64,000 bases of DNA, taken from positions 124,001-188,000 of the forward strand of contig NZ_JAFEWE010000006.1 of NCBI RefSeq assembly GCF_017355785.1. Direction: 5' to 3'. The position numbers and the translations under genes were made by a program. The notes beneath the pieces were generated by a model that did no database searches, was not told where the DNA came from, and worked only from the letters and a program-made list of their open reading frames with translations. Positions 23,617-63,717 of the stretch are shown here, piece after piece; within the stretch, counting starts at the first letter, position 1, and each line of letters begins with the position of its first letter. Source of the DNA: Desertivirga arenae. GTDB lineage: Bacteria > Bacteroidota > Bacteroidia > Sphingobacteriales > Sphingobacteriaceae.

Positions 23617-23689
23617 GGTATCATAGCTCAGTTGGTAGAGCAAAGGACTGAAAATCCTTGTGTCGCTGGTTCGATTCCAGCTGATACCA
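23617..23689 (+). tRNA. trnF: tRNA-Phe (GAA anticodon)
   Basis: Acceptor stem GGTATCA pairs fully with TGATACC (7 bp), followed by discriminator A at 23689. D-arm AGCTCAGTTGGTAGAGC, anticodon stem AAGGA/TCCTT around loop CTGAAAA with anticodon GAA at 23650-23652, and T-arm with GGTTCGATTCC. The 3' CCA is not encoded (CAG follows). 73 nt. Confidence 0.96.
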
Positions 23690-23694
23690 CAGAA

Positions 23695-38950: not shown

Positions 38951-38954
38951 GATC

Positions 38955-42122: not shown

Positions 42123-42159
42123 AATTCTTGGTATTTATCTAACGAGATAGATGTTGTTA

Positions 42160-44190: not shown

Positions 44191-44198
44191 TGCTTTAC

Positions 44199-44242
44199 CT
44201 AACAGTGTTAGCAAAATTAACAGTTCAATTTGAATAAGGCAA
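44199..44242 (-). promoter_or_regulatory. tetR promoter with perfect palindromic operator
   Basis: Minus strand: TTG (-33) at 44240-44242 and TAATTTTG (-7, full match) at 44212-44219, spacing 20. Just downstream lies the perfect palindrome CTAACAGTGTTAG (44199-44211), over the predicted start of transcription and 8 bases before the ATG, an autoregulatory position. Confidence 0.75.
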
Positions 44243-44472: not shown

Positions 44473-45108
44473 ATGAAAACCCTTACAAAAGAAATGCAAG
44501 CAGAAATTACTCCCAGCATGGCGTTGGAGTTGTTAAAACAGGGAAATACGAGATTCGTAAGTAATCTTAAAATAAACAGGAACTTGTTGCAACAAGCAAA
44601 TGAGACTTCTGATGGGCAACATCCATTTGCAGTTATTCTTAGCTGTATCGATAGCAGAACTTCTGCTGAATTGATATTCGATCAGGGTCTGGGAGATATC
44701 TTTAGTGTCCGTGTTGCCGGAAACATCATCAACGAAGATATTTTAGGAAGCATGGAGTTTGGTTGTAAAGTAGCAGGATCAAAGATCATCGTGGTACTTG
44801 GACACACCAAATGTGGTGCTATTAAAGGCGCTTGCGATCACGTAGAAATGGGTAATCTTACGGCATTACTTACCAAGATCAGACCAGCAGTAGATGACGA
44901 GCTAACTATTAAAGAAAACCGGAACTCTTCAAACCCTGAGTTTGTAGAAAAAGTTTCTGAGATAAATGTAAAGCGGACAGTTAGGTCAATAGTAGAGAGG
45001 AGTCCTATCCTAAGAGATATGATCAAGGCTGGAGAGATTCAAATTGTTGGAGGGATCCACGATATAACTACTGGTGTTGTACAGTTTCATGAGGTAGAAA
45101 GCTTGTAA
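44473..45108 (+). CDS. Beta-class carbonic anhydrase, 211 aa
   Basis: Interconverts CO2 and bicarbonate. Zinc ligands are visible: C58 in SCIDSR (with D60 and R62, the Asp-Arg dyad), then H111 and C114 in VLGHTKCGA. The fold runs across DIFSVRVAGNI, a family signature. No signal peptide, so probably cytoplasmic. Stop codon lies inside the loop of a hairpin shared with the convergent PorP gene. Confidence 0.95.
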   Translation: MKTLTKEMQAEITPSMALELLKQGNTRFVSNLKINRNLLQQANETSDGQHPFAVILSCIDSRTSAELIFDQGLGDIFSVRVAGNIINEDILGSMEFGCKVAGSKIIVVLGHTKCGAIKGACDHVEMGNLTALLTKIRPAVDDELTIKENRNSSNPEFVEKVSEINVKRTVRSIVERSPILRDMIKAGEIQIVGGIHDITTGVVQFHEVESL

Positions 45109-45121
45109 AAGCTTTCTACCT
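45092..45121. terminator. Hairpin embracing both convergent stop codons
   Basis: Perfect 13-bp stem AGGTAGAAAGCTT/AAGCTTTCTACCT (45092-45104, 45109-45121) with a 4-nt loop. The anhydrase stop (45106-45108) lies in the loop; the opposing PorP/SprF stop (45121-45123) touches the far arm. Confidence 0.7.
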
Positions 45122-46041
45122 TAGAAATAGCATGCCAAATGATCCCGGCCCCTTACTGCAAACCTAAATTTTAACATTACTTCATGGGAGCCCTTTTGAT
45201 ATCTTCTTAGTTCAGTATGGGCCATATCATAGCTATAGCCAAACTGAACATCGGGAGTTACGAAAACAGAAGCCATGAAGTTGAATGAATCCATAGATCT
45301 GTAGGAAGCACCTAGCCAAAACTTCTCCATTAGCAAGATACTTGAACTTATATCAAACTGAATGGGACTTCCATTTACATATTTCACTAAAACACCAGGT
45401 TTATATTTAAAATCATAACTCACGTCCCAAAGAGTCCCTGCCTGGAAATAATAATGTGGCTTATTTCTTAAACTTCCTTCAGCTTTTTCAGCGGAAGCGA
45501 TAGAGCGCTGGTAAAAGTAAGGGGATGAAACACCCATATAAAACCTGGGCGTAAAGAGCATAACACCTGCACCAAAATTTCCCCGGATCACACTTGTATT
45601 CTGAAAAACAGGATCATTTACAGATTCCGGACTTTGTGCATAGAGCTGAGAATAATCTCCACGGAAGCTACTGAATCCACCGTTAAATCCAACAGCCAGA
45701 TATCCATCTTCTCCAACTTCCACCCTTTGTGCAAGTGTAAAGTAAGCTCCGGTTTCTTTAAGCACTTCGCCCGCCCGGTCATCTGCCAGGATCCCACCTA
45801 TAAAGGTATTCGACTCGCCAATAGGGGAATGAACGGAGAGAGATTGTGTTCTTGGGGCGCCTTTAAAACCGGTCCATTGCAACCTTGAAAGAGCAGTTAC
45901 ACGCAGAGATTCTTCCATAGCTGAATAGGCCGGATTTATCGCCTGATTATTGAACATATACTGCGTGTACATGGCCTGCTGCTGCCCCCTGGCTATTATT
46001 GAAAGCAAAATCGCTGATAATATAATTCCTATCGCTTTCAT
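45121..46041 (-). CDS. PorP/SprF-family type IX secretion outer-membrane protein, 306 aa
   Basis: Signal peptide (residues 1-20, ending RGQ) followed by the family opening MYTQYMFNNQAINPAYSA. The rest is a beta-barrel-like run with aromatic strands (GEDGYLAVGFNGGFSSFRGDY). SprF of Flavobacterium johnsoniae is needed to secrete the giant adhesin SprB, and such genes often follow their type B substrate. Here it starts 2 bases after the stop of the 5,380-residue gene, so the pairing is strong. Function as partner of this substrate is inference from context. Confidence 0.93.
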   Translation of the reverse strand: MKAIGIILSAILLSIIARGQQQAMYTQYMFNNQAINPAYSAMEESLRVTALSRLQWTGFKGAPRTQSLSVHSPIGESNTFIGGILADDRAGEVLKETGAYFTLAQRVEVGEDGYLAVGFNGGFSSFRGDYSQLYAQSPESVNDPVFQNTSVIRGNFGAGVMLFTPRFYMGVSSPYFYQRSIASAEKAEGSLRNKPHYYFQAGTLWDVSYDFKYKPGVLVKYVNGSPIQFDISSSILLMEKFWLGASYRSMDSFNFMASVFVTPDVQFGYSYDMAHTELRRYQKGSHEVMLKFRFAVRGRDHLACYF

Positions 46042-46043
46042 CC

Positions 46044-49000
46044 TTATCTTTTTAATATTACGTATCCTTTATTGCTTTTTTGAGATCCATCAGCCACTTT
46101 AGTATGAATGATGAAATAGTAGACCCCATCAGTCAGTGTTGCATTTGCATTTGAGCCAATGCCACTATTGGCAATTCCTCTGAAAGCTTTATCGCTGTTA
46201 TTATAGCCCTTGATCCTATACACTTCATTACCCCAGCGGTTGAAGATAATCACCTCGTTATCCGGATACCTTTCGATATTGCGAATGACGAACTGCTCGT
46301 TGCCCTGACTGTCATTGTTAGGAGAAAGTAAGGGATCAGGAACGATATCGTCATTCTCTCCAGGACCCACTGGCTTGCCTTCAGGATAGAAATCCTTGAT
46401 GATTACGTTTGCATTGCTTCCAAGTTTCACAAAAGCACTTGGAGTTGCCGAAGTAATACGAATGGCCAGATTTTCGTCACCTTCTTTCAGGTAATCTTTC
46501 AAGCTTTGAACATGAATTTTTTGCTCACTTGTTTTAGCTCCAGCCGGAATAGTGATGGAGGTATATTGAGGTTGAAGGACATAGTCTTTACCCTGTGCAG
46601 CACTACCCCCATATTGCAAACCGAGTTGCACATCCTGAAGAAGTACATCATCTAATACAGCTCTAACAACTATTGAATCGCCTTCAGTTATTGTTGCAAC
46701 ATCAGGAGTGAGAGAAGCCGTTACATTACCTTGTACCTTCAACCGAACGGTAGCTGTATCTTTTAATCCGGCAGGGTCAATTATTTCGTATACAAACTCT
46801 TCAATACCTGCAAATCCTTTTCTAGGAATATAAAGGAATGAACCATCGGAAACATTGAAATTGTCAAGTTGAGCCCCTGTGAGTGGCGCACTAATTAAAC
46901 GGAATTTCAAAACATCACCGTCCACGTCCGAATCGTTCGTAGCCACTGTACCTCTGAAAGCAGCATCCTTGGCGATATAAAATTCATCATCATTTGCCTT
47001 TGGAGGGTCATTAACCGGAGTTACATTTATGATACCTGTAGCAATGTTCGACTCAAGTCCCAGGTTATCCTTAACGGTATAAGTGAAGGTGTAGGTTCCA
47101 TAGTCATTAGCAAGCGGAGAATATCTTAACGTTCCATCGGTATTTATAACAAGCGTTCCCTTTACCGGAGGCGTCTGGATCCTAACCGTTTTCGCATCAA
47201 TTCCATCAACATCTGTGTCATTTGCAGTAACAGAGAAAGTAACCGCTACATCTTCAGGAGTTGTAACGACATCAGGATTAGCAACAGGGGCAAAATCATC
47301 ATTGATGATCTTTGCAATAGCAGGGCTGCCCTTTGCTGTTAGTCTTCCTCCATACGAGGGACTGATATTGCTCAAGACCATGTTAAATAATTCATCGGCT
47401 TCAACTCTAAGGTCTCCGTTCACCTCTACAGTGATCTGTTTGGTTTCACCCGCAAACCCAGAGAATGAAAGAGTACCAGATTTTGCCAGATAATCATTGT
47501 CATCAGTTGAAGCACTTCCATTAGTAGTACGGAAATCTACATCGAAACCGCGGCTTGTAAGATTATCTAATTTAACGTTGAAGGTCACGGTTGTCTTACC
47601 GTTATGTTTTTCAATTACTGGATCAGGACCAGTTATCGTTATTTCAGCTTTATCGTTATCGTTGATATTAATTACCGGTAATGGAGTTGCCCAGGCAAGA
47701 AGACTGTTTGAGTTACTGATTGATTCAACTGAAATACTTATAGTCTCAACATCCTCAAGTTCATTGTCGTCAGTTATCCTAACCGGAAGCGTAATACTAT
47801 TGGTTCCTGCGGGAATAGTGATAGAACTTATAGCTGAAGTACTGTAATCAGCGCTTGTAGCAGTTCCGGATAAACGATAGGTAATGATTGTTGGTGCCTC
47901 GGAGGTAACATTTTGAGGGTAACTGAAAGTGAAAGCAGCATCTTGCAGTCCTTCTGTTCCATCGGTTTTTGTTACCAGGATCTGACCGGCATCATCATTC
48001 TTAATGGTTCCAGTTGAGTTTGCGTTAGTGATCTGCAACTTATTGGCAAATGCATTAGATAAGCTATGAATAGTCAGATTAAAGATTTCATCAGCCTCAA
48101 GCTTTAAATCTCCCTTAACCTGAACTTTTATCGTTTGCACCTCTCCTGCCTGACCAGCAAAGTTCAGTACCTGATCAATACCAGGAATATAGTCATTGTC
48201 TTCCACTGTTGCAGACCCGTTAGCTGTGGAATACTTAAGCGTGAAAGGCAAACCTGTAGCCTTGCTTAAGGTAACCGGGAAATCGAAGGAGGTTGTACCA
48301 CTATTTCCTTCAGGCTTAACTACCGGAGCTCCTAAAGAGATATCCCCAAAGTCATCGTCCATAATTTTCATTACCGGAATTTGAGGGTTAAGTGTAACCG
48401 CAGCATTATATAAGGAATTTAATGAGCTTACGTTCAACACTACTGTTTCGTCCTCTTCCACTATGGCATCATTAATTACAGGAAGAGACAAAGTAACCTT
48501 ATTTTGGTTCGCCGGGATGGTAATGGCTGCAGAGGTTGCCCCTGTATAATCCACACCATTGCCGCCTGCTGTTCCATCCAATGAGTAATTTATCAGGACC
48601 GGCTGGTCTGAGGTCATATCAGCCGGTAAGCTGAATATAAAGCTACCTGCAACGGTTCCTGTTTCCGCCCCGTCAGTCTTGGTAATAGTAACAGCTCCCC
48701 GGTCATCATTAAGGATGGTACCGGTAACACTGGTATTCTCTAAAGCCAACCGCCCATTGAAATTCTCAGACAAGTCTTTCAACATAAGGGTTAAGGTCTC
48801 ATCCGCCTCTATCTTCTTATCGCCTTTTACCTGGATGCTGATAGTTTGGGTTTCTCCTGCAGTTCCTGCAAAGGACACTGCCGCATTTACCGCCGCTGTT
48901 GCATAGTCGTTGTCTGAGGCCTTCGCCAGATCATCAGCTGTTTGGTATGGAAGACTGAATGGCCTTCCGGTTGCCTTTTTCAGGGTGAGTTTAAAATCAA

Positions 49001-52000
49001 GCGTACTTGTACCATTATCGCCTTCAGCTATGCTGGCCGGCGCCACCGAGATAGTGGTGTTGTCATTGTCAAGGATGTCTGTTGATTGAATCGCATTTAA
49101 CAGTTGAATGGTATAAGCATTACTTGACACTGATGCAGACAGATCTACTTTTTCTTTATCTTCAACCAGTTCATCGTCAGTAACAGGAAGACTCAGCGTT
49201 ACACTGTTTTGTCCTGCCGGGATAGTTATTGCCGCCGGAGAATTTCCTGAATAATCAATACCGTTATTTTTGGCAGTCCCGGCGAGGCTGTAATCTATCT
49301 TAACCGGAATATCAGCAGTGATTCCGAAAGGATAACTGAAAATAAATGAAGCTGCCTGCCCGCCTTCCACTCCATCTGTTTTTGCGATACTTATCGCTCC
49401 TGAGTCGTCATTCTGTATGGTCGTCGTTCGCTGTTTTTCAGGAATAGTTAAAAGTCCTCCGAAATTATTAAGCGGCTCCCTTAAGATAAGGTTGAAGCTC
49501 TCATTCGCCTCTATCTTCTTGTCTCCCTTTACCGGGATACTGATCGTCTTACTTTCGCCCGCTGTTCCTGCAAAGGTTAAAGTACCGATCACAGGAATAT
49601 AATCTCCATCGGTTGAAGAAGCAGTTCCGTCAATGGTTTCATAAGTAATGTCAAAACCAGTATTGGTTGGCCTGTTCAACGTTACTGTGTAGACCGCGTT
49701 TTGAGTGCCATCATTTCCTTCTGGTGCAGCAACATTTGCACTAAAGGACAAGGTACCGCTGTCGTTATCAGCAACTATAAGATCTGGGAAAAGCGGGTCG
49801 ACTGAGATAACTGCGTTATACTGACTAGCTGAAACTACGTTAAGAAGCTTAATCTCCTCATTCCCCTCCACTTTAATATCATCCAGTACAGGCAGTACTA
49901 ATGTGGCAGCACTTTGGCCAGGCTGAATTACTATTGTTCCTGATGTTGCCCCAACATAGTCCTCTCCGTTACCCGCTGCATTGCCTCCAAGACTATAAGA
50001 GATACTTGTTGCTTTATCTGCAGTAATATTTCCTTTGAAACCGAAAATGAATTTACCAGGTGCAGGTCCAGACTCTGCTCCATCAACTTTTGTTACCTGA
50101 ATTACTCCTGCATCATCATCAGTGATTGTACCTACAGCAGTTTCGACAGCAAAAGACAGGCGACCGTTAAACGTATTGCTTACACTGTTCAGCTTGGCAG
50201 TAATAGTTTCTGTTTCCTCGATCATCTTATCGTCTTTTACCACTACTGAAATAGTCTGAGATTCACCAGCGGCACCACTGAAGCTTAAAGTTCCATTTGT
50301 ACTGGTATAATCGCCGCTTGCACTGGTTGCAGAACCATCTGCAGTAGAATACTGAAGGGTGAACGGTTTTTCGGTAGCTTTATCTAAGGTCACTTTAAAG
50401 CTAAGTGATTGGGATCCTGCGTCGCGTTCATTAATAGCGGCGGGACTTATTGACAAGGTTCCATTGTCATTATCAGCAATGCTAATACTTGTGACATTGG
50501 CAGGAATACCAATATTGTATGGATTCGCCTGAACTTTGGTTTCCAGTTCAATCTTCTCAGTGTCTTCTATCACTGCGTCATCAGTTACTGGAAGCGTTAC
50601 AGTTACACTGCTCTGTCCTGCAGGAATATCTATAACGGAGTTAGTCCCAGTATAATCAAGGCCTCCTTTAGCATTACCGCCTAAAGTATACTCAATCCTT
50701 AAAGGAACATCCGCTATTAGTCCGTTTTCAAATCCGACGTTAAAGGAAGCATCCTTCAACCCTTCCTGACCGTCAATTTTGGTAAGAACAAGATTCCCTG
50801 AATCATCATTTTTGATGGTGACCGTTCTATTAGTCGCTGTAACTTTAATACGATTATTAAAAGGGCTTATTACAGCTCCAAGGTTGAAATTAAAGCTTTC
50901 ATCTGCTTCAATCTTAGTGTCCCCATTAATAGGTATAGTTATAGTCTTCACATCACTTAGACCACCCGAGAAGGTTAAAATACCATTATTGGAAACATAA
51001 TCATTATCGGATGCTTTTGCTGTCAGATCTGAAGTAGAGTAAGCTAGTTTGAAACCCGATGAGCTTTCCTTGTCAGCACTAACGCTGAAAGTTGCGTTCT
51101 TTTGTCCGTTATCACCTTCAGTTATACTGATATCATTACTAAGGGTAACAGTTAGTTCGTCGTTATCCTCAATGTTAAGTGTTTTAGAGGGAGATGAAAT
51201 ACTTGTCGGATTAAGACTTGTAATTGTGCCTGCTGTAAGCTTTACATCCTCATCCCCTTCCACTATCTGATCATCTGCTACAGAAAGGGATAGTACAGCT
51301 TTTGTTTCTCCAGCAGGAATGGTAATACTTCCGGCCGCAGCGTCAGTAAAATCCTGTCCTTTTACGGCTGTACCAGCTAAAGAATATTGCACAACAGCAT
51401 CTTTGTCCGAAGAGTAACCCGGTTTATAACTGAATTCAAAAGTTCCGGGAACAGTTCCAGCTTCCTTTCCATTGGCGACAGTGATGAATATTTCACTCTG
51501 ATCATTGTTAACGATCGTTGCTTTTGAAGAAGCCGCAGCTAGTTTTAGTCGCTGATTATAATCATAAGAAAGACCGCTTAGCAATAAAGTCATGAATTCA
51601 TCGCTTTCAATTTTACGATCTCCATTAACTACTATGTCAATAATTTGAGATTCTGCTGCATTACCTGCAAATTGAAGGTTGGCAGATTTAGCAACATAAT
51701 CTCCGTCTGCAACTGTAGCTGTTCCATCGGCTGTAGAATAATTTAAGTTGAAGGCCCTACTTGTCGCGTTGTCAAGACTTAAGGTGAAACTCGCGGTTTT
51801 TACACCATCATCACCCTCTGTCAAATTCACACCGGAAAGGGTTAGAGTAGCAAGGTCATTGTCATCAATCGAAATTTTTTGAACCTGGTTGGACAGAGTG
51901 ATCGGATAGGAGGAGCTCACAGATGTTGCGTTGACCATCAGGCTTTCCGCATCTTCTAAGGTTAGATCATCAACTACCGGAAGTTTTAATTCTACCGAAC

Positions 52001-55000
52001 TTAGTCCTGCAGGGATAGTTACCTCTCCCGTACTTGAACCTATATAGTCCGTCCCGTCTCCCACGGCATCCCCGGTTAAATTATAACTTACCTTAATATC
52101 CTCATCAGCTGTTCCCTGGCTAAGGCTGAACAAGAACAGACCTCCTTTTATTCCTTCTGCTCCATTTTCACCTGTGATCGCTATCGTAGCTGCATCATCA
52201 TTTTTTATAGTTGTTGTTGCATTGTCAATTACAAAACTTAGCCGGTCGGCATTTAATCTGTCTTTGAAAGTTTCTGTGATATTACTTAATAGTACTTTAA
52301 AAGCCTCGTCCTTTTCAATCTTTGTATCTCCATTGATTATAACCGTGAAGCTTTGTGTTTCTCCTGGGTTTTGCCCGGTGAAGCTTAGTTGGGCATTTAC
52401 AGGCAAATAATCATTATCGCTTACCAATGCGGTTCCATCTGCGGTAGCATAATCAATTGAAAAAGTCTTTGACGTTGCTTTATCCAGGGTAACAGTATAG
52501 CTTGCGGTGGTTGTACCCGAATTAGTTTCGGTAGCTATTACCGGGGCACTTAGGGTAAGGGTAGCAACATCATTATCCTCGATAGTTAGCTGTTGATAAG
52601 TATTAGCCATGGTAAGGCCATTATCTATGGAGTTAACGGTAAGTTCTACCGTTTCGTCCTTCTCAACAATAGCATCATCATTTACAGTAAGCGGTAAACT
52701 AACACTATTAACTCCGGCAGGGATGGTGATAAATCCAGATGAACCGGTATAGTCGGCTGAGTTGGCCGACCCTTCCAGTGAGTACTGGATAACAGTTGGC
52801 TGAGAAGAACTGGTGCCCGCTGGGAAACTGAATATAAATTCAGGAGTATCGCCAGCCTCTGCTCCATCCTTATGGGTGATGCTGATATTTCCGCCGTCAT
52901 CATTTAGAATCCGCCCTGTTGCATTTGGATCCATGATAATGAGTTTCCCTCCGAAGTTCTCGCTAAGGTCGGAAAGCTGGATCTTAAACGTTTCATCTGC
53001 CTCAATCTGCAGGTCTCCTGTTACCGGTATACTTATCTTTTGTGTTTGAGCACCCGGACTAACGGTAAAGTTAAGAATCCCGGTTTTAGCAATATAGTCT
53101 GAACCTGCAACAGCAGTTCCATCCACAGTCTGATACTTGATGGTAACAGCTTTGCCCAACTCTTTATTTAACATAACATCAAATACAAGATCCACAGTTC
53201 CGTTACTGCCTTCGGTTACAGAGACAGGACTAACAATGGCAATCGTTGCCTGATCGTTGTCAATGATGTCAAGGCTAGCGGGACTGTTTTGCGCAGCAAA
53301 TCCGTAAATACTGTTTACCGTTATCGCAACTTTGATGTCTTCAGTATTTTCAATAATGTCGTCATCCGTAACAGGGATACTTATGGTAACATCACGTTTT
53401 CCAGCATCGATGGTTGCTGTACCGGTAACCGGTAAAGAATAATCAGATCCAGATACAGCACTACCCGACAAGGTGTAATTAATAATAGTAGGCTTATCAG
53501 CGATGGCCCCGTTACTTAAGCTAAAGGAAAGAGAGGCATTATAAGCTCCTTCTTTTCCATTTGCCGCAGCTATAACAATCTCTGCGCTATCATCATTTTT
53601 CAGTGTACAACTTGTCTGTGTTACCGGCACTGTAAGTGCATTAGCAAAACTGTTACTTAGCTGGGACAACTTTAAGGTAAAGCTTTCATCGGCTTCAACC
53701 TTCCTGTCGCCATTAACCACAACAGTGATCGTTTTGCTTTCCCCTGCTGATCCATTGAAGGTAAGCGTGCCTGAAGCTGCTACATAATCATTATCGGCCG
53801 AAGTAGCATTGCCATCCTGCGTGCTATAGGTAATGCTAAAAGCCTTACTTACCGGATTATTAAGAACTACTGTGAATGTAGCAGTAGTTTGACCTGTTGA
53901 AGTTTCATCAAGAGAAACCGGACCACTCAAAGTTAAAGTTGCCGCATCGTTATCTATAACAGGAATTTCCAGGGAAGAAGTAGCAAGAGAAACCAGTCCT
54001 GAACTGTTTGACAAGGTAAGGTCCCTCAGAATAATTTTTTCCTCTTCCTCCAGGATATTATCGTCAATAACAGGAATACTCAAGGTATAACCAGGCTGGC
54101 CTGCAGGAATTTCTATCCAGTTCTGAGCAGGAGAAGTATAATCTTTCCCTCCTTCGGCATCTCCATCTAGCTTAAATGAAACTCTTGTTGGCTGATCAGA
54201 GGTTACCCCTGCCGGAAAATTAAACCTCAATTCAGCCATCCCTGGATTATCTTCACGAAAATCGCTGGCAGTGATCGTAATATCACCCGAGTCATCATTA
54301 ACAATAGTAGTTGTTGCGGATGTATTAGCAAGCCTTAGGGTATTTCCGAAATTTACAGAAGGCGCATTAAGCTCTACCGTGAATGTCTCATCTGCCTCAA
54401 TCTTCTGATCAGAATTGATTGGAATTTCAATAGTATGAGTTTCACCTGCAGAACCAGTAAAGCTTAAAGGTAGCTGGGTTGAAGTAGTTGGAACATAGTC
54501 GGCATCTGCACTTGTTGCTGTTCCATCAACTGTTTTATATTTAATGGTAAAACCTTCGGCAGTCGCCACATCCAATTTTACATCAAAGCTTGCTGTCCTT
54601 GTTCCGTTGTTTCCTTCAAGAATGGTTACGGGACTAATAGAAACAAGAGCCTTATCATTGTCAGCAATTTTTAGAGACTGAGGTGAATTTACAACCTTTA
54701 TACCATGAGAATTTGAACGCGCGGTTGCAGTTACCTCTACAATTTCAGTATCCTCTACAACTGCGTCATCAATAACAGGTAAGTTAACAGTTACACTATT
54801 TTGCCCTGCAGGAATATCGATAAAGGAATTAGCACCGGTATAATCTTCGTTTGATTTAGCTGTACCTGTCAGGAAATAATCTACTCTAACCGGAACATCT
54901 GAACTTAATCCATTTTCATACCCAATAGTAAATGAAGCGTTATTAAGTCCCTCTTCTCCATCGTTTGTCGTGAGCATTAAATTTGCCGTATCGTCATTCT

Positions 55001-58000
55001 GGATCGTAACGGTGCGAGTAGTAACAGGGACCTTAATCCGCGCTCCAAAAGGACTTGTAAGCGTTCCAAGATTAAATCTGAAGCTTTCATCCGTCTCAAT
55101 CTTACCGTCTCCATTGACAGGAATGCTAACTGTTTTAATATCGTTAAGGCTGCCTGAAAATGTAAGAGTACCACTAATCGCGATATAGTCATTGTCGGCT
55201 GTCTTTGCGGTAATATCTGCAGTGGAGTAAGTCAGGGTGAACCCAGAGGCTGTTGCCCTGTCGGGACCTACAGTGAAACTGGCAGTTTTCTGTCCGTTAT
55301 TTCCCTCTGTTATCGTTACGTCGCTGCTTATTGTTACAGTAGCCTCATCGTTATCCTCGATCTGCAGGGTTTTAGATCCATCGATAATACTTGTAGTATA
55401 AGCACTTACTATCGTTCCGGCCGTCAGCCTTATATCTTCAGTACCTTCAACGATCTGGTCATCTATCACTGGTAAAGAGAGGGTAGCTTTTGTCTGACCG
55501 GCAGGAATCCTGAAAGAACCGGATATATCGCCGGTAAAATCGAGCGTTGCTGCGGCCGAGCCGGTTAATGTGTATTGAATGTCAACATCTTTATCAGAAC
55601 TAAAGCCTGGCTTAAAGCTAAATTCAAAAGAACCGGGAATTGTTCCTTGTTCTTTCCCATTTGTAGCGGTTATAACTATTTCACTTTGATCATCATTTGT
55701 TATCATTGCCTTTGCAGAATTAGAAGCAAGGCTTAAGTGTTGAGTAAAGTCATAAGACAGGTTGCCCAGCAAGAGGTTGAAATTTTCGTTACTTTCAATT
55801 TTACGGTCACTATTAACAGTAATATCTATTGTTTGCACTTCACCCGCTTCGCCGTTGAAGTGGATCTTTCCAGTTTTGCTCTGGTAATCCCCATCGGCTG
55901 TAGTAGCATTACCATCAGATGTAGTAAAATCCAGATCAAATCCTTTGCTAGTTTTGCTGTCGAGACTAATGGTGAAACTTGCTGTCTTTACACCGTCATC
56001 GCCTTCCATTAGCGAAACCCCGGCAAGGCTAATTATTGCCTTATCATTATCTTCAATACTAGTCGTTTCGGTCGGATTAGACAGACTTACCGGATAAGAA
56101 CTACTTACACCTGAGGCACTTAGGGTAATTGATTCTAAATCTTCTAATATAGTATCGTCAATAACCGGAAGCTCAAGGACTGCAGAATTCTTCCCTGCCA
56201 AAATGGTTATCGAACCAGTGGTATTGCCGGAATAGTCGATCCCGGCTCCGCCAGCATCTCCTGTTAAAGTATACGGTACGGTGATATCCTCATCTGCAGT
56301 ACCTTGACTTAGCGTAAAGGTAAAGCTTGCTCCTTTCAGGCCTTCTTTTCCCTTATCTCCTGTAATTGCTATAGTAGCAGCGTCGTCGTTTTTTATAGTA
56401 CCGCTGGATGTTTTCAAAGCGAAGCTTAACCGGTCCGCATTTAATTTGTCTTTAAATGTCTGACTGATATTACTTAACTCCACCTTAAAGGTCTCATCCT
56501 TCTCAATCTTTGAATCGCCATTGATCACTACATTGAAGCTTTGAGTCTCTCCGGCATTCTTACCAGTAAAGCTTAAGCTCGCATGAGCAGGCAGATAATC
56601 ATTATCGCTTACTAAAGCAGTTCCGTCTGAAGTAAGATAGTCAACCGAGAAGCTTTTAGAGGTAGCTTTGTTCAGGGTTACTGTATAAGTGGCAGTTGTA
56701 GTTCCCGAATTTGTTTCGGTAACAATTGCCGGTGCACTTAAAGACAAAGTAGCTAAATCGTTATCTTCTATGACCAACTTGTCAAAGGTATTGCTCATTG
56801 TCATACCGTTGCTGACAGATATCACATTCAGCTCTACGCTTTCATCTAATTCAACAATTGCATCGTCGACCACTGACAGACTCAAGGTAACACTATTACT
56901 GCCGGCAGGAATAGTAACAGAAGAAGCAACTCCGCTGTAATCAGTCCCGGCGACAGCATCACCTGTAAGGGTATACTGAATTACTGTTGGCTGAGATGAA
57001 CTATAACCAATAGGAAAACTAAATCTAAACTCAGGAGTCTGAGCTCCCTCCCCTCCGTCTTTATGGGTGATGGCAATATCACCACCATCGTCATTCTTAA
57101 TGCGGCCGATAGCATTGGGATCAGGCGTAGTAAGCTGACCACCGAAACTTTCGCTTAGGTTGCTGAGGCTGAGGGAGAAAGTTTCATCAGGTTCGATAGA
57201 AAGATCGCCCGTAACAGGAACACTTATTTTCTGAGTTTGAGCGCCAGGTGTAACGGTAAAAGTTAAGATCCCTGTCCTGGCAATATAATCTGAACCTGCA
57301 ATTGCACTGAGGTCGGCTGTTTTGTATTGCAAGGTAACTGTTTTGCTTATTGCCTTATTTAAGCTTACCTCGAATTCAAGATTATTCGCCCCCGAATTCC
57401 CTTCTGTTATAGAAACGGGACTGGAAATACTTATTATACCCTGGTCATTGTCGAGAATATTTAGGTTTGCCGAACTGTTAGCGAAAGTAAAGCCATAAAC
57501 ATTTGAACCTATGCTGGCCGATACAACAATGTCTTCTGTATTTTCTACTATATCATCGTCTGTAACAGGAACGGGAATGGTAATGCTGCTTGAGCCGGCA
57601 GGAATTATTGCTGTGCCAGCTATTGGTAAGTCATAATCAGCTCCAGAAATAGCTGTCCCAGACAATGTATAATTGATTGCAGTTGGTTTATCTGAAATAC
57701 CATTATTCAAGCTGAAAGTGATGGACGCGTTATACATTCCCTCGGCACCCGGCGCAGCTGATACAGCCACCTGGGCAGCGTCATCGTTCTTGATGGTGCA
57801 TACTGCCAGTGAAATTGGAATTGTAAGTTTATTACCGAAGGTGTTACTAAGTTGAGAAAGTTGAAGTTGAAAATCCTCATCAGCTTCCACTTTTTTATCG
57901 CCATTAATGGTAACGCTTATTGTTTGAGTTTCTCCGGCGGTTCCGTTAAAAGTAAGGATACCAGATGTAGAAATGTAGTCGTTATCGGCAGCGCTTGCAA

Positions 58001-61000
58001 CACCATCTATAGTATTATAGGTAATACTGAAACTTTTACTTACCGGCTTATCAAGCTTAACAGTAAAACTTGCAGTAGTTTGACCACCGGATGTTTCGGT
58101 GATAGTACCAGGACCACTAAGGCTCAGGGTAGCGGCATCATTGTCTTCAATAGAGGCTTCAGGAATTGAAGTATTTAAAGAAACGCGGCTATAGTCGCTT
58201 ACTAATGAAACGTTTTTAAGCCTTACTTTCTCCTCCCCTTCAACAATGAGGTCGTCGTTTACTTGTAAGCTCAAAACAACCGACTGCTGCCCGGCAGGGA
58301 TCTCAACAAAGGCAGCATTCGAAGGTGTAAAATCAACACCTGCCTCAGCTCCTGCTCCATCAAACTCAAAATTGATGTGAGTAGTCTTATCTGAGCTCAC
58401 GCCATTAGAAAAGCGAAACTCGAACTTACCATTTTGGGGACCATTCTCCGAACCATTGGTAGCCAAAATACTAATGATACCAGAATCGTCGTCGAGGATG
58501 GTAGCAGTTGCAGTAGTATTGAACAAACTCAAACTATTGCCAAAAGTGGGACTTACGCTTTCGAGCAGGATATTGAAAGTCTCATCTCCTTCGATCTTCT
58601 GATCTGCATTAACGATAATATCAATAGTATGAGACTCGCCTGCGGTACCATTAAAATTAAGGGTTGCACTTGTACTTGCAGGAATTGCCGTATAATCTCC
58701 TTCTCCACTTTTTGCAGTACCGTCGGCAGTTTTATATTTAAGGCTGAAACCATCAGCGGTAGCCACATTAAGTTTAACCTCAAAGCTTACGGTCTTTGTA
58801 CCGCTATTACCTTCCGTTACGCTTACAGGACTTACAGTTATAAGAGCTTTATCATTATCAGTGATCGTGAGTGATTTTGTAGGATTAGTTAATCCGATAG
58901 AATAAGTATTGGCTTCAACAGAGGCTGCAATCAACACAGATTCTGAACCTTCTGCAACAGCATCATCAATAACAGGCAAAACAAGTGTGACATTATTTTG
59001 TCCGGCAGGAATTATCACTGAACCGGTTACAGCAGAAGAATAATCCAGACCGCCTCCTTTAGCATCACCAGAAAGAGTATAGTTTATAGTTAAGGGAATA
59101 TCTGTTGTTACCCCCGAAGGCAACGAAAAAGTAAAACTTCCACTTTTAACACCCTCTTCTCCGTCTTCGCTGCTAACAGTTATCTGACCACTATCATCAT
59201 TAACTATATCTGCATTGGCAATATCCTTTGGAATGGTTAAACGACCACCAAATGAATCTGAAAGATTGAAAATGTTTAGTTTAAATGATTCTGATCCTTC
59301 AATTTTTTTATCACCTATTATTGGAACAGTAATGAATTTCTCTTCGTCCTTAACGCCCAAAAATTCCAGAGATACTGTACCTGAAGATACATAATCATTG
59401 TCGGCAGATCTTGCAGAACCATCGTCTGTGCGATAGTTTAAGGTAAATTTCTTCGATGTCTCCTTATTTAGACGAAGAGAAAAAGTAGCGTTTATCGTAC
59501 CGGTATTTCCCTCATTGAGAACAATATCATTCCCCAAATTTAAGTTGGCATTATCATTATCGCTGATCTTAACCTCAGGAGCGATAGTGGTAGCATTACT
59601 TACTGTATTTGCATGTGAATTATACAAACGGGTGAGAGCCACTTTTGAGACTTCATCACCTTCAACAATCTCATCATCTATTGCAGGAAGTGTTAAAGTA
59701 ATTTCATTTTCCCCTGCCGGAATTTTTATCGTTCCAGAACCAGTTCCTGTAAAATCCAAGCCGGCGGTAAGGTCACCGTTTAATACATAATCAATTTCTG
59801 TATCAACATCGGAAGTAACTCCCGTAGTTAGACGAAAATTAACCTTAGCTGGCACTGTGCCGGTCTCGGTACCGTTGGTAGTGGTAACAAAAAGCTCTGC
59901 TATATCATCATTTACGATAGTCCCGGTAGCAAAATTGGTATTAAGATAACCACCTGATGGATTAGACAATGTAACCCTGAAAGTTTCATTCCCTTCTATT
60001 ACACGGTCTGCATTCAGCAGAAATTTAACAGTGGCCGTCTTTGAATTAGCTGGGATGGTAACAGTGCCTGTTCCTGAAACCGACGAGTCAAAGTCAGCTG
60101 TATTGGTTGTAATATGACTCAATGTATAATTGGCACTTACATCACAACCAGTGGTATTAGGTATTGACACTGTAAAACTTATTTCACTTAAGGCTGCAGT
60201 TTTTTCAGTTACGGAAGCATCCAGAATAGATATACCAACCGTGGTAATTGTGAGATTGGATGATGTTTTAATATTATTACAACCTGCACTGCATTCTAAG
60301 GCAGCATCTGTCGGCGGAGCACTATCAGGGTTAGTTGCATCCGGGTCTGTGACGTCGGCAGGACGAAGGATACTGGCAGTAACAGAACTTAATGATCCGG
60401 AAACTGTTGTCTTGCCTTTAACCTGCAAGGTAAGTTCAGCCCCATTCTTCATGTCTACAGTAGTAGAGAATTGAGTGGAGTTTGCTGTGTTCCCATAATT
60501 ACTTGACACACCTACAGTTGGAAGTGCAGTTACCCCGGTGAATTGAAATGAAGATGGGTAGGCCAGGGTAAATTTGGCACCAGTTACATCATCAGGACCT
60601 GCATTTTTTAATTTAACATTGTATGTAATCTCTTCGCCTACGCAGTAACTTGTTTTACCTGGCGTTATGCTTACTACCTGAAGATCGGCCTTCCTAAGCT
60701 CAACATTCATCAGAGGGCTTATCGGAGTACTTTCTACATAGGTCCAGGTATCCAACCCTCTGGCATTACCAAAGTCATTGGTCCATTTGTGTCCTGCAGT
60801 AGTGCTGCTTGCACCGGTTAATTGCTTTGTTCCGTTGGAAATTGAAGAATCGTCCCAATAAATTTTATCATCAGGACTGTTTACTCCATTTGTTCGTTTT
60901 ATAATGATTCCATTAGGGTTGTTCTCAACATCAGAAAATGGAAAATGAACCTCTCCTCCTCGTAGTGTCATTTTCATGTTTGAAGGGGTGAAACTGAAAC

Positions 61001-62186
61001 CGCCGCTTACAGGACTACCCTGTCCGTTTGTTCCGTCCCAGTAAACTGAATCTTTTCCAATTGCAGTAGTACCAGTGAGCGTTTTATCAACTAAGTCATT
61101 GAAAGAACCATTCTTGTCGATATCAATATTTATGGAATAACCAATAACCTGATTAGCCTCAAAACTAATATAGCCACCAAGAGGAAAGCTACCTGCTTTG
61201 TATAAAGAACCCTCTTTTCCACGAAATAGAAAGTTACTAGCAGAAGGACTGGAAGGTTCTTTTAAAAGCCATGTTGTTCCTCCCCCGGCAATTGGTGCAG
61301 AATCCGGAAGATCGGCGTTTGGCTGCGAAAAGAAAATCTTATGAGTTACATCTGTGCCTGAATCAGCTGTCCGGGGGTCCTTTATAGCAGCACCTGTATT
61401 ACTTACACTTTTATAAGTAGCATTTCCGGAGGTATTAACAAAACCTTTGTTATTTGCAAAAAAAGCGAAAATGAATCCAGCCTGCCCGTTGTTATTTACT
61501 TCATAAATATAACCATCCTTAGTAAGGATCCTGAAAATACCATTAAATCCGGGGCCGAAGCTACCAAGGCTACCGCTAAAAATATTCATGTAAGAACGAC
61601 CGTTCTTTATAAATCCGTCAGTTCCTTTAACTGTTACGTCAAAGGCAGCGATATAAGGACCTGTGGAAGGTTGAGTCCATGCTGTGCCAACTAATATAGT
61701 AGTTGGAAATTGGGAGTCTTGGGCTGCAGCGGGGGATGGTGATATGAAGTTTATTTCCCAAACTCCCTCTTCTCCATTTTTTACAGTAAGTGTATAGGGA
61801 CTATAACCTCCTGTATTAGGGAGGGGACCAGCAGTTTCTTCTGCTAAATTATTAATCTTACCCAGAGTAGTCCCTGTACCTGTTGAGTAAGTGTTTCCAT
61901 TAGGGGCTGTGGCCTTTATTTCTCCACTTCCAACATTTTGGGCGCTGGATCCCAGGTATAATATTTCACCAGCTTTTACATATACTTTAACTGACCCCCG
62001 TGTTGGAAAAGAATTATAAGCACTGTTGGCAGATGTTGTACTTTGAAGGTATGCCCTGTATCCCCCATTAGTTAAAAGATCCTTACTCCCTTCTCCAAAT
62101 ACCTTCCCACTCACCAGTGAAAACAGAACCGGTATTAAAAAGAAAATGCGTTGCACACTATTATAGCTAAAAAAGTTCCTATACAC
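46044..62186 (-). CDS. Giant secreted Calx-beta-repeat protein with type B T9SS sorting domain, 5380 aa
   Basis: Start is GTG at 62186; signal-like hydrophobic stretch at residues 14-27. Residues about 30-490 have no domain I can name; 499-610 look like a DUF11-type domain. From about 650 to 4965 lie 37 Calx-beta-like domains (19 of type A, 18 of type B, strictly alternating). Type A carries NGDxKIExDE, type B carries VxDDxIVExxE acidic loops, probable Ca2+ sites. Two cadherin-like modules (ANDTDVDGIDAKTV, NDSDVDGDVLKF) cover about 4965-5150 and a 38th Calx-beta domain 5155-5265. The last 90 residues (SPNNDSQGNEQF ... FNRWGNEVYRIKGY) are a T9SS type B CTD. Likely a Ca-stiffened surface adhesin or gliding-type filament; that role is inferred. 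Confidence 0.95.
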   Translation of the reverse strand: MYRNFFSYNSVQRIFFLIPVLFSLVSGKVFGEGSKDLLTNGGYRAYLQSTTSANSAYNSFPTRGSVKVYVKAGEILYLGSSAQNVGSGEIKATAPNGNTYSTGTGTTLGKINNLAEETAGPLPNTGGYSPYTLTVKNGEEGVWEINFISPSPAAAQDSQFPTTILVGTAWTQPSTGPYIAAFDVTVKGTDGFIKNGRSYMNIFSGSLGSFGPGFNGIFRILTKDGYIYEVNNNGQAGFIFAFFANNKGFVNTSGNATYKSVSNTGAAIKDPRTADSGTDVTHKIFFSQPNADLPDSAPIAGGGTTWLLKEPSSPSASNFLFRGKEGSLYKAGSFPLGGYISFEANQVIGYSINIDIDKNGSFNDLVDKTLTGTTAIGKDSVYWDGTNGQGSPVSGGFSFTPSNMKMTLRGGEVHFPFSDVENNPNGIIIKRTNGVNSPDDKIYWDDSSISNGTKQLTGASSTTAGHKWTNDFGNARGLDTWTYVESTPISPLMNVELRKADLQVVSITPGKTSYCVGEEITYNVKLKNAGPDDVTGAKFTLAYPSSFQFTGVTALPTVGVSSNYGNTANSTQFSTTVDMKNGAELTLQVKGKTTVSGSLSSVTASILRPADVTDPDATNPDSAPPTDAALECSAGCNNIKTSSNLTITTVGISILDASVTEKTAALSEISFTVSIPNTTGCDVSANYTLSHITTNTADFDSSVSGTGTVTIPANSKTATVKFLLNADRVIEGNETFRVTLSNPSGGYLNTNFATGTIVNDDIAELFVTTTNGTETGTVPAKVNFRLTTGVTSDVDTEIDYVLNGDLTAGLDFTGTGSGTIKIPAGENEITLTLPAIDDEIVEGDEVSKVALTRLYNSHANTVSNATTIAPEVKISDNDNANLNLGNDIVLNEGNTGTINATFSLRLNKETSKKFTLNYRTDDGSARSADNDYVSSGTVSLEFLGVKDEEKFITVPIIGDKKIEGSESFKLNIFNLSDSFGGRLTIPKDIANADIVNDDSGQITVSSEDGEEGVKSGSFTFSLPSGVTTDIPLTINYTLSGDAKGGGLDYSSAVTGSVIIPAGQNNVTLVLPVIDDAVAEGSESVLIAASVEANTYSIGLTNPTKSLTITDNDKALITVSPVSVTEGNSGTKTVSFEVKLNVATADGFSLKYKTADGTAKSGEGDYTAIPASTSATLNFNGTAGESHTIDIIVNADQKIEGDETFNILLESVSPTFGNSLSLFNTTATATILDDDSGIISILATNGSENGPQNGKFEFRFSNGVSSDKTTHINFEFDGAGAEAGVDFTPSNAAFVEIPAGQQSVVLSLQVNDDLIVEGEEKVRLKNVSLVSDYSRVSLNTSIPEASIEDNDAATLSLSGPGTITETSGGQTTASFTVKLDKPVSKSFSITYNTIDGVASAADNDYISTSGILTFNGTAGETQTISVTINGDKKVEADEDFQLQLSQLSNTFGNKLTIPISLAVCTIKNDDAAQVAVSAAPGAEGMYNASITFSLNNGISDKPTAINYTLSGTAISGADYDLPIAGTAIIPAGSSSITIPVPVTDDDIVENTEDIVVSASIGSNVYGFTFANSSANLNILDNDQGIISISSPVSITEGNSGANNLEFEVSLNKAISKTVTLQYKTADLSAIAGSDYIARTGILTFTVTPGAQTQKISVPVTGDLSIEPDETFSLSLSNLSESFGGQLTTPDPNAIGRIKNDDGGDIAITHKDGGEGAQTPEFRFSFPIGYSSSQPTVIQYTLTGDAVAGTDYSGVASSVTIPAGSNSVTLSLSVVDDAIVELDESVELNVISVSNGMTMSNTFDKLVIEDNDLATLSLSAPAIVTETNSGTTTATYTVTLNKATSKSFSVDYLTSDGTALVSDNDYLPAHASLSFTGKNAGETQSFNVVINGDSKIEKDETFKVELSNISQTFKDKLNADRLSFALKTSSGTIKNDDAATIAITGDKGKEGLKGASFTFTLSQGTADEDITVPYTLTGDAGGAGIDYSGNTTGSITILAGKNSAVLELPVIDDTILEDLESITLSASGVSSSYPVSLSNPTETTSIEDNDKAIISLAGVSLMEGDDGVKTASFTISLDSKTSKGFDLDFTTSDGNATTADGDYQSKTGKIHFNGEAGEVQTIDITVNSDRKIESNENFNLLLGNLSYDFTQHLSLASNSAKAMITNDDQSEIVITATNGKEQGTIPGSFEFSFKPGFSSDKDVDIQYTLTGSAAATLDFTGDISGSFRIPAGQTKATLSLPVIDDQIVEGTEDIRLTAGTIVSAYTTSIIDGSKTLQIEDNDEATVTISSDVTITEGNNGQKTASFTVGPDRATASGFTLTYSTADITAKTADNDYIAISGTLTFSGSLNDIKTVSIPVNGDGKIETDESFRFNLGTLTSPFGARIKVPVTTRTVTIQNDDTANLMLTTNDGEEGLNNASFTIGYENGLSSDVPVRVDYFLTGTAKSNEDYTGANSFIDIPAGQNSVTVNLPVIDDAVVEDTEIVEVTATARSNSHGIKVVNSPQSLKIADNDKALVSISPVTILEGNNGTRTASFDVKLDVATAEGFTIKYKTVDGTATSADADYVPTTSTQLPLSFTGSAGETHTIEIPINSDQKIEADETFTVELNAPSVNFGNTLRLANTSATTTIVNDDSGDITITASDFREDNPGMAELRFNFPAGVTSDQPTRVSFKLDGDAEGGKDYTSPAQNWIEIPAGQPGYTLSIPVIDDNILEEEEKIILRDLTLSNSSGLVSLATSSLEIPVIDNDAATLTLSGPVSLDETSTGQTTATFTVVLNNPVSKAFSITYSTQDGNATSADNDYVAASGTLTFNGSAGESKTITVVVNGDRKVEADESFTLKLSQLSNSFANALTVPVTQTSCTLKNDDSAEIVIAAANGKEGAYNASLSFSLSNGAIADKPTIINYTLSGSAVSGSDYSLPVTGTATIDAGKRDVTISIPVTDDDIIENTEDIKVAITVNSIYGFAAQNSPASLDIIDNDQATIAIVSPVSVTEGSNGTVDLVFDVMLNKELGKAVTIKYQTVDGTAVAGSDYIAKTGILNFTVSPGAQTQKISIPVTGDLQIEADETFKIQLSDLSENFGGKLIIMDPNATGRILNDDGGNISITHKDGAEAGDTPEFIFSFPAGTSSSQPTVIQYSLEGSANSADYTGSSGFITIPAGVNSVSLPLTVNDDAIVEKDETVELTVNSIDNGLTMANTYQQLTIEDNDVATLTLSAPVIATETNSGTTTASYTVTLDKATSKTFSIDYATADGTALVSDNDYLPVNAQLSFTGQNPGETQSFTVIINGDTKIEKDEAFKVLLSNITETFKDRLNADRLSFVIDNATTTIKNDDAATIAITGENGAEGIKGGLFLFSLSQGTADEDIKVSYNLTGDAVGDGTDYIGSSTGEVTIPAGLSSVELKLPVVDDLTLEDAESLMVNATSVSSSYPITLSNQVQKISIDDNDLATLTLSGVNLTEGDDGVKTASFTLSLDNATSRAFNLNYSTADGTATVADGDYVAKSANLQFAGNAAESQIIDIVVNGDRKIESDEFMTLLLSGLSYDYNQRLKLAAASSKATIVNNDQSEIFITVANGKEAGTVPGTFEFSYKPGYSSDKDAVVQYSLAGTAVKGQDFTDAAAGSITIPAGETKAVLSLSVADDQIVEGDEDVKLTAGTITSLNPTSISSPSKTLNIEDNDELTVTLSNDISITEGDNGQKNATFSVSADKESSSGFKLAYSTSDLTAKASDNDYVSNNGILTFSGGLSDVKTITIPINGDTKIEADESFNFNLGAVISPFNNRIKVTATNRTVTIKNDDSGNLVLTKIDGQEGLKDASFNVGFENGLIADVPLRIEYTLGGNAKGGLDYTGTNSVIDIPAGQSSVTVTLPVTDDAVIEDTEKIELETKVQANPYNIGIPANVTSISIADNDNGTLSISPAAINERDAGSQSLSFKVTLDKATEKPFTLQYSTADGSATSASGDYTSTNGTLSFSGAAGESQTISVVVKDDKMIEETETITAKLNSVSNTFNGRLSFAVETAVGTITDDDAGVIQVTKVDGAESGPAPGKFIFGFKGNITADKATSISYSLGGNAAGNGEDYVGATSGTIVIQPGQSAATLVLPVLDDIKVEGNEEIKLLNVVSASQYNAVISVDPLFPDLIVADNDSGTLSFSANVAAPEGNDGTQNAVYTVTLNRPTNTGFDITYETIDGTASSTDGDYIPVIGTLTFAGTAGESKTISIPVKGDKKIEANESFNLILREPLNNFGGLLTIPEKQRTTTIQNDDSGAISIAKTDGVEGGQAASFIFSYPFGITADIPVKIDYSLAGTAKNNGIDYSGNSPAAITIPAGQNSVTLSLPVTDDELVEDKEKVDLSASVSSNAYTIQLLNAIQSTDILDNDNTTISVAPASIAEGDNGTSTLDFKLTLKKATGRPFSLPYQTADDLAKASDNDYATAAVNAAVSFAGTAGETQTISIQVKGDKKIEADETLTLMLKDLSENFNGRLALENTSVTGTILNDDRGAVTITKTDGAETGTVAGSFIFSLPADMTSDQPVLINYSLDGTAGGNGVDYTGATSAAITIPANQNKVTLSLPVINDAIVEEDETVVLNVSSLNSLYNAAVTLNPQIPVMKIMDDDFGDISLGAPVVKPEGNSGTTSFDFPVTLSKATGLPFTLKYSTANGSATVEDNDYIPGIDQVLNFAGQAGEVQTIKVQVKGDLKLEADEIFNLTIHSLSNAFANKLQITNANSTGTIKNDDAGQILVTKTDGTEGLQDAAFTFSYPQNVTSEAPTIITYRLSGTATSADYSTSAISSITIPAGTNSITLPVRITDDNELEDVETISISVESISNSNSLLAWATPLPVININDNDKAEITITGPDPVIEKHNGKTTVTFNVKLDNLTSRGFDVDFRTTNGSASTDDNDYLAKSGTLSFSGFAGETKQITVEVNGDLRVEADELFNMVLSNISPSYGGRLTAKGSPAIAKIINDDFAPVANPDVVTTPEDVAVTFSVTANDTDVDGIDAKTVRIQTPPVKGTLVINTDGTLRYSPLANDYGTYTFTYTVKDNLGLESNIATGIINVTPVNDPPKANDDEFYIAKDAAFRGTVATNDSDVDGDVLKFRLISAPLTGAQLDNFNVSDGSFLYIPRKGFAGIEEFVYEIIDPAGLKDTATVRLKVQGNVTASLTPDVATITEGDSIVVRAVLDDVLLQDVQLGLQYGGSAAQGKDYVLQPQYTSITIPAGAKTSEQKIHVQSLKDYLKEGDENLAIRITSATPSAFVKLGSNANVIIKDFYPEGKPVGPGENDDIVPDPLLSPNNDSQGNEQFVIRNIERYPDNEVIIFNRWGNEVYRIKGYNNSDKAFRGIANSGIGSNANATLTDGVYYFIIHTKVADGSQKSNKGYVILKR
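47290..60235 (-). repeat. Protein-level tandem array of 37 Calx-beta-like domains (A-B alternating)
   Basis: Counted from the conserved acidic loops: 19 A loops (e.g. NADQKIEGDET, NGDTKIEADES) and 18 B loops (e.g. IDDAVAEGSES, TDDDIVENTED), in strict ABAB order, beginning and ending with A. Mean domain length about 117 residues (about 350 bases). Confidence 0.85.
50466..58850 (-). repeat. Large duplicated block: two ~4.19-kb copies of six A-B pairs
   Basis: Domains A3-B8 (about 54656-58850) correspond pair by pair to A9-B14 (about 50466-54655). Anchors: CCCGAATT at 52516 and 56704 (offset 4188), CCAAG at 50878 and 55066 (4188), GAGTTTGAG near 53041 and 57232 (4191). The boundaries are estimated by eye. 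Confidence 0.75.
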
Positions 62187-62805: not shown

Positions 62806-63717
62806 TTATCTTTTCTCGCTTAACGACTTGATGTGGTCCATTACACGTAGATGAACGTGCCTTGTAATGCTTTCCGCCCATATGTCATAATACCAAAGCG
62901 GGAACACGTACAAGCGATACCAGCTATTTCCAGTCAGGGTAGTGGTCCCATTACGGTTATCTTTCAATAAAAACTGTCCACGCAAAATATCTATATGCCC
63001 CATGATCTCAGGGTCTCTCGGTTGCTTTACAATATCAAATGTCAGGTTCTCCAAGGGCTTGTATTGCACAATCTTCTCATCGAAAATGTAACCGTTACTA
63101 AATATACACTTTCGTCCGGCACCTTCGTAATAACCATCTACCGTCGCCGCTACCGGACTTGGCATTCCTACTTTGAATAACCAGAATTTGTTCTTCTCTT
63201 TTATCCTTTCGAAGGCAACTACGTGCTTCCAAACTTCTTCTGCTGGGGCATTTATAACAATTACATCAGAAACCTTACTCTCGTAATGATGCTTAGAAAG
63301 AGAATCTGCAACAAAAAGGAAAAGCAATAAGGAAAGGACACTTATATTTAAATTCCTGTTATCCCTTTTAAACATCGCCCTTCCAACGAATGTCCCGGTA
63401 ATAACAAAGCCAAAAATCAAGGGAGAAACAATAATGAGGCAAATCACTCCTTCTCCCAGGAAAATAGCACTTAAAAGAATCGCCACTGTACAGTTTAAGA
63501 CAGAAAGAGCCGTTACCCTGGCACCTTTCAATTCCAGGTTCTTCCAAAACCAGGAGCATATGATCCCCATCACAAATGGAATGATAACAAACTCAGCATA
63601 GATAAATACACCGGGATGCAGCGATAAGGCACGTGTAATTCCGATTACGGAAAAGGCGAAGAGATTTGAAAATACCAATCCTTGGATCTCTTCGCGTTTG
63701 TAATTCCTATTATTCAT
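62806..63717 (-). CDS. Membrane protein with SRPBCC (polyketide-cyclase-like) domain, 303 aa
   Basis: Residues 1-135 hold four or five transmembrane segments (LFAFSVIGITRAL, FVIIPFVMGIICSWFW, VLNCTVAILLSAIFLGEGVICLIIVSPLIFGFVITGTF). Residues about 150-303 are a soluble helix-grip domain (VIVINAPAEEVWKHVVAFERI ... GTTTLTGNSWYRLYVFPLWYYD) of the SRPBCC type, which binds hydrophobic ligands. The membrane-plus-SRPBCC architecture suggests lipid or polyketide handling at the inner membrane; this is inference. Starts 16 bases after the previous gene. Confidence 0.8.
   Translation of the reverse strand: MNNRNYKREEIQGLVFSNLFAFSVIGITRALSLHPGVFIYAEFVIIPFVMGIICSWFWKNLELKGARVTALSVLNCTVAILLSAIFLGEGVICLIIVSPLIFGFVITGTFVGRAMFKRDNRNLNISVLSLLLFLFVADSLSKHHYESKVSDVIVINAPAEEVWKHVVAFERIKEKNKFWLFKVGMPSPVAATVDGYYEGAGRKCIFSNGYIFDEKIVQYKPLENLTFDIVKQPRDPEIMGHIDILRGQFLLKDNRNGTTTLTGNSWYRLYVFPLWYYDIWAESITRHVHLRVMDHIKSLSEKR

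Follow-up and report, generated by a model that had tools for sequence, protein, structure and literature searches.

A probable giant surface protein of Desertivirga arenae with a stalk of 37 strictly alternating Calx-beta domains of two classes

Calx-beta domains are familiar from the exchangers NCX1 and CALX, where two of them, CBD1 and CBD2, form an intracellular regulatory pair; the Ca2+ ligands of NCX1 CBD1 sit where the domain adjoins the one that follows. Here we analyse 64,000 nucleotides of the genome of Desertivirga arenae (Sphingobacteriaceae; contig NZ_JAFEWE010000006.1, positions 124,001 to 188,000; this whole stretch is called the window), in which a giant open reading frame (ORF) of 5380 aa with a GTG start (46044..62186, minus strand) encodes 37 Calx-beta domains of two classes, A and B, in unbroken alternation. 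These share the fold, six invariant ligand positions and the tandem arrangement with the NCX1 and CALX pair, but they number 37, stand in a protein that is predicted to be exported, and form two classes lacking different ligands. With a probability of about 0.7, we read the product as a fibrillar adhesin-type protein exported by the type IX secretion system (T9SS), which would be displayed on the cell surface, presumably in an adhesive role, on a stalk that Ca2+ would bind and stiffen.

Several described systems resemble parts of this architecture. BapP of Pseudoalteromonas tunicata, a large adhesin, combines Calx-beta with Big_9 domains and has Ca2+ sites predicted at its junctions, and LapA contains Calx-beta-like domains. 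BapP, however, comprises 1,600 aa with 12 repeats and a beta-propeller head, and the part of its description that is available mentions neither an ABAB order nor a T9SS domain (PMC12153261). Fibrillar adhesins share with the present protein a long stalk of beta domains and a head opposite the anchor (PMC8286594), but here the head contains no recognised adhesive domain and the stalk is an ordered, two-class one. As in the Periscope Proteins (PMC8201768), stalk length varies between related species; their repeats, however, are at least 80% identical, whereas here neighbours reach at most 33% (mean 23%) and the best pair 76%. In the A-band of titin (PMC10665226), a giant chain of beta domains is likewise organised in super-repeats, and domains at equal positions resemble each other most, but those domains belong to two families (Ig and FnIII), whereas here there are two classes of one family and no known scaffold whose periodicity matches. 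SprB of Flavobacterium johnsoniae (PMC9870892) is also a giant surface filament protein of the Bacteroidota, but it differs from the present Calx-beta stalk, which has no SprB repeat. Calx-beta repeats in large adhesins (PMC12153261), fibrillar adhesins and titin super-repeats (PMC10665226) are thus already known. In the open literature, which leaves most subscription journals outside, we found no account of a Calx-beta stalk in which two classes strictly alternate, and no paper that brings Calx-beta together with type IX secretion.

The array was delimited at the acidic ends of its domains and occupies aa 643-4964 (47295..60260, minus strand); a plus-strand reading of the interval meets many stops. 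The 19 A domains measure 118-125 aa (mean 119.9) and nearly all end in NDD, while the 18 B domains measure 109-117 aa (mean 113.6) and nearly all end in DND. An earlier note, made from the letters of the stretch, had counted 19 A and 18 B domains in perfect ABAB order at 47290-60235, leaving the strand unstated, and had envisaged a rod of about 5,000 residues. Segmentation and identities bear out the count and the order, and the interval is correct to within 25 nt; the array itself is shorter, at about 4,320 residues. Under random order, perfect alternation would have a probability of 5.7e-11, a value that rules out chance only, because tandem duplication does not produce a random order. Mean identity is 41% among A domains, 39% among B domains and 23% between the classes, with no A-B pair above 33%; along the array it is 23.5% at lag 1 and 39.4% at lag 2. 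In an IQ-TREE tree, the A and B domains fall on opposite sides of one branch with support of 96/96, and that branch is present in 92% of the bootstrap trees. The classes proposed in the note are therefore real, and a mixing of A and B in the tree, which it had named as telling against them, did not occur. The first domain, A01, is a strongly diverged A, scoring 34 bits with the A model and 31 bits with the B model.

Profiles, a structure model and comparison with the PDB support the Calx-beta identity of the domains. For the two halves of the array, the Pfam model PF03160 gives 420 and 474 bits (cut-off 27), with 21 single-domain matches above the cut-off, and the best PDB sequence matches by profile search are the CBD domains of NCX1 and CALX, down to 1.9e-18. 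An AlphaFold2 model of an A-B-A segment, computed from 62 sequences of the window and its relatives without templates, reached a predicted local distance difference test score (pLDDT) of 96.5 and a predicted template modelling score of 0.84. Its best VIA-align match is NCX1 CBD1 (Z 15.8, root-mean-square deviation 1.7 Å over 112 residues, 25% identity). Both checks had been proposed in the earlier note, the second for an AB pair, and the hidden Markov model and structure results agree in returning the Calx-beta sandwich and no other fold.

At the equivalents of what we take to be the NCX1 ligands E385, D421, D447, E451, E454 and D500, a numbering whose spacing agrees with the profile-search alignment to NCX1, all 37 domains carry the same acidic residue. 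Six of the nine positions of the CBD1 ligand set are thus invariant, and the remaining three vary by class. Position 446 is G in 14 of 19 A domains and D in 17 of 18 B domains; position 498 is N in 17 of 19 A and D in every B; and position 499 is D in 18 of 19 A and N in 17 of 18 B. These majority states recur in all seven arrays compared, which come from several genera, with exceptions that include A, N or K at class positions in some B domains of the relatives L044, L046 and L049; L051 differs. From the conserved ligand positions, the stalk domains are predicted to bind Ca2+.

The AB pair is not the largest repeat in the array: a 4-domain phase is also present and, on a larger scale, a 12-domain super-repeat. 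Domains at lag 12 are 51% identical, compared with about 40% for the other even lags, and none of 20,000 permutations gave a value as high. The two copies of the super-repeat are domains 5-16 (aa 1113-2511; 54654..58850, minus strand) and domains 17-28 (aa 2512-3907; 50466..54653, minus strand). Eleven of their 12 domain pairs are 56-76% identical, the pair 6/18 being 41% identical, and most of the pairs are well-supported sisters in the tree. Further, within each class similarity is higher at offsets that are multiples of four than at offsets two domains larger (permutation in the window array: p=0.001 for A, p<0.001 for B), and after removal of lags 4, 8 and 12 this phase persists for B, not for A. 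Among nine arrays, which are not all independent, B shows the phase in every one (p<0.02) and A in six (p<0.002). Most of the comparisons between genera have the phase in common for A, but fewer of them do for B. In B domains, the loop that follows the first ligand, a feature scored by eye and picked after inspection, reads EG in 9/9 domains at positions 4, 8, 12 and so on, and in 1/9 at positions 2, 6, 10 and so on.

Relatives were found through the head of the protein (aa 1-641), which has matches in 77 of the 301 family genomes and in each of the three genomes of the genus examined; Flavobacterium poyangense has a match of 37% identity in the head. Strict ABAB order is present in relatives from two genera besides that of the window, with 37 domains in L039 and in L040, L041 and L043, 29 in L042 and 45 in L045, such that strict arrays always have 4n+1 domains. 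A profile of the A-B-A segment finds matches in 6 of 296 genomes of a phylum sample, using a strict cut-off (E 1e-30) on a thin sample. Between the window and either L039 or L040, no clear one-to-one orthology of interior domains was seen; a weak orthology signal exists when L039 is compared with L040, as well as at the C-terminal end. Domains of L040, L041 and L043 match one-to-one at about 75-100%. Relative to L040, L042 is missing domains 8-11 and 21-24, that is, two losses of four, and L045 contains a duplication at offset 8 (domains 14-20 versus 22-28, 71-95%). Together with the 12-domain duplication in the window, all visible size changes are multiples of four. Since the order is kept across genera while individual domains are replaced, we judge from these comparisons that alternation in the stalk is old and has been maintained.

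Not all stalks follow this order. In L044, L046, L047 and L049, two of which belong to the window's own genus, ABAB stretches are broken at places where 4 or 8 domains belong to an additional class, and L051, L055 and L057 have further classes mixed in, with long runs. The arrays of L051, L053 and L055, from another genus, contain 51-55 Calx-beta domains with a lag-1 identity of about 50%, and, compared with the window array, bear more resemblance to one that has been changing recently. In L048, 23 cadherin-like domains replace the Calx-beta stalk, and in L069, of 824 aa in total, there is no stalk; both keep the head and the C-terminal CHU_C domain. The same head is thus joined to unrelated stalks or to none in these and other relatives, as with exchangeable stalks.

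The remaining parts of the ORF frame the array. A probable signal peptide (approximately aa 1-31; 62094..62186, minus strand) has a hydrophobic N-terminus, as read from the sequence, with a predicted helix at aa 9-23. It is followed by the conserved N-terminal head without a named family (approximately aa 32-495; 60702..62093, minus strand), which is common to orthologues with very different stalks, and a DUF11 beta-sandwich (aa 505-619; 60330..60674, minus strand; PF01345, 37.9 bits, cut-off 24.6). Beyond the array lie two cadherin-like or Big_9 domains (46737..47291, minus strand), a weak, diverged 38th Calx-beta domain (aa 5153-5268; 46383..46730, minus strand; 18 bits against the B profile) and, at the C-terminus, the CHU_C domain of type IX secretion (aa 5286-5378; 46053..46331, minus strand; PF13585, 66.7-73 bits, cut-off 27). 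In no other ORF of the source genome were Calx-beta matches found. Two nt downstream of the giant ORF is a gene for an outer-membrane T9SS protein of the PorP/SprF family (45121..46041, minus strand; 227 bits), which also adjoins most orthologues; the stretches analysed around L039, L045 and certain other relatives yielded no match, and several of these stretches are cut off too early for a verdict. The source genome also encodes SprA (SprA_N, 518 bits), which together with the CHU_C domain and the PorP/SprF neighbour indicates export by the T9SS. The earlier note had mentioned neither the C-terminal domain nor this partner gene; the super-repeats, the relatives and the head that they have in common were likewise absent from it.

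Based on these observations, the C-terminal CHU_C domain would direct export by the T9SS and retention at the surface, with the PorP/SprF protein as a probable partner. Some 40 beta-sandwich domains would make up the stalk, with the N-terminal head at its tip, away from the cell. As the acidic residues of the predicted Ca2+ sites would lie at the domain end that meets the next domain, Ca2+ may lock the junctions and stiffen the rod, as has been proposed for BapP and RTX adhesins (PMC12153261). A-to-B and B-to-A junctions would have slightly different ligand sets and hence two distinct interfaces. The array would change in size by gain or loss of multi-domain blocks, of which 12, 8 and 4 are seen, and because duplication or loss of even blocks retains the ABAB order, growth of this kind would preserve it. 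A bolder extension, which we consider doubtful, is that the stalk is a hierarchical rod, with AB pairs nested in four-domain units and these units in the 12-domain super-repeat, and that the two junctions bind different sets of Ca2+ ions. Each four domains would then turn by a constant angle, such that every fourth domain presents the same face and length changes in steps of four.

Various points weigh against the reading as a Ca2+-stiffened, T9SS-exported adhesin with a maintained AB stalk. Profile searches matched no known adhesive domain or named family in the head, and its predicted model is of moderate confidence (pLDDT 77), so that the word adhesin, and with it the suggested adhesive role of the head, rests on architecture. 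The PDB matches of the head fall mainly on aa 312-641 and look like generic beta-sandwich ones, with aa 32-311 barely covered. The TIGR04131 type B sorting domain scores 25.2 bits against a cut-off of 35 in the same region as CHU_C, and we therefore assign the product to CHU_C rather than to TIGR04131. Arrays of the L051 type carry long single-class runs, so the arrangement is not universal. Finally, outside the 12-domain duplication the histories of A and B domains have no detectable correlation (Mantel r=0.09, p=0.27), which means that the AB pair is not established as the unit of duplication. Congruent A and B histories were considered as proof of pair duplication and set aside, as the signal comes only through the 12-domain block.

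On why A and B alternate, the evidence cuts both ways. The earlier note had suggested a two-domain structural repeat selected as a unit, an idea that is borne out only in part. Persistence of class-specific ligands and of alternation across genera, while domains are replaced, speaks for this and for functional constraint; the 4- and 12-domain repeats and the changes by multiples of four speak against the pair as the unit. Alternation could instead be a mutational by-product, in which an AB or A1B1A2B2 unit was amplified and diverged A and B domains exchange only like with like, so that the order is kept automatically. Multi-domain duplication with exchange restricted to the same class would indeed leave the alternation intact even if the AB pair were under no selection, and repeats usually grow by duplication of several domains at once, most often of two (PMC1553488). 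The size changes of 12 in the window, 8 in L045 and twice 4 in L042, as well as the 4n+1 counts, fit this account, to which we give somewhat less than an even chance. However, it leaves unexplained the class residues at three Ca2+-ligand positions that are kept in seven arrays. Further, even same-class domains of the window array have no exact DNA match above 18 nt in common, so that exchange is probably rare now and cannot currently maintain the difference.

The difference between A and B might also serve to keep neighbours unlike and thereby avoid domain-swap misfolding during export, a benefit proposed for divergence of adjacent domains (PMC4660218; PMC8201768) and in keeping with neighbours being 23% and next-but-one domains 39% identical. 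We regard this as unlikely: in L051 and L055, which have the same head, lag-1 identity averages 49-54% and single-class runs are present, the members of those in L051 all match one L055 domain at 88-93%, and the Periscope Proteins also break the rule of neighbour dissimilarity (PMC8201768). As the sole cause of alternation, neighbour dissimilarity was rejected, since the relatives break it. Least likely, in our view, is a function in gliding, which would make the protein a motility adhesin like SprB instead of a static one. The T9SS C-terminal domain, the PorP/SprF neighbour, the presence of SprA and a size comparable to that of SprB (6497 aa; PMC9870892) would suit this role, but the giant ORF, on contig C40, has no SprB repeat (PF13573), the matches of the genome to that repeat being in other ORFs on contigs C7, C23 and C41, and with twelve CHU_C matches in the genome, CHU_C alone is no mark of a motility adhesin. 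All three accounts are compatible with an exported, Ca2+-stiffened adhesin-type protein, and their likelihoods do not sum with that of this reading.

The surroundings of the gene were also recorded. An RND efflux set, namely an AcrB-type transporter, an HlyD-type adaptor and an outer-membrane efflux protein with an upstream TetR-family regulator (37538-43332 and 43576-44214, both minus strand), is separated from the PorP/SprF gene by a carbonic anhydrase gene (44473-45108, plus strand). Upstream of the giant gene are genes for a small protein that carries a 'Luciferase domain' (PF17648; 62379-62804, minus strand) and for a second protein whose match to Polyketide_cyc2 is weak (62806-63717, minus strand). 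The sole tRNA detected in the window is a tRNA-Phe (gaa; 23617-23690, plus strand).

Strict alternation that is kept across genera despite the turnover of domains offers a natural test of why neighbouring domains differ, with interface chemistry, misfolding avoidance and mutational bookkeeping as the candidate reasons to be separated. Relatives that have the same head with a cadherin-like stalk, a mixed-class stalk or no stalk are ready comparisons for this purpose, and the class-specific Ca2+ positions give a clear prediction for a three-domain construct.

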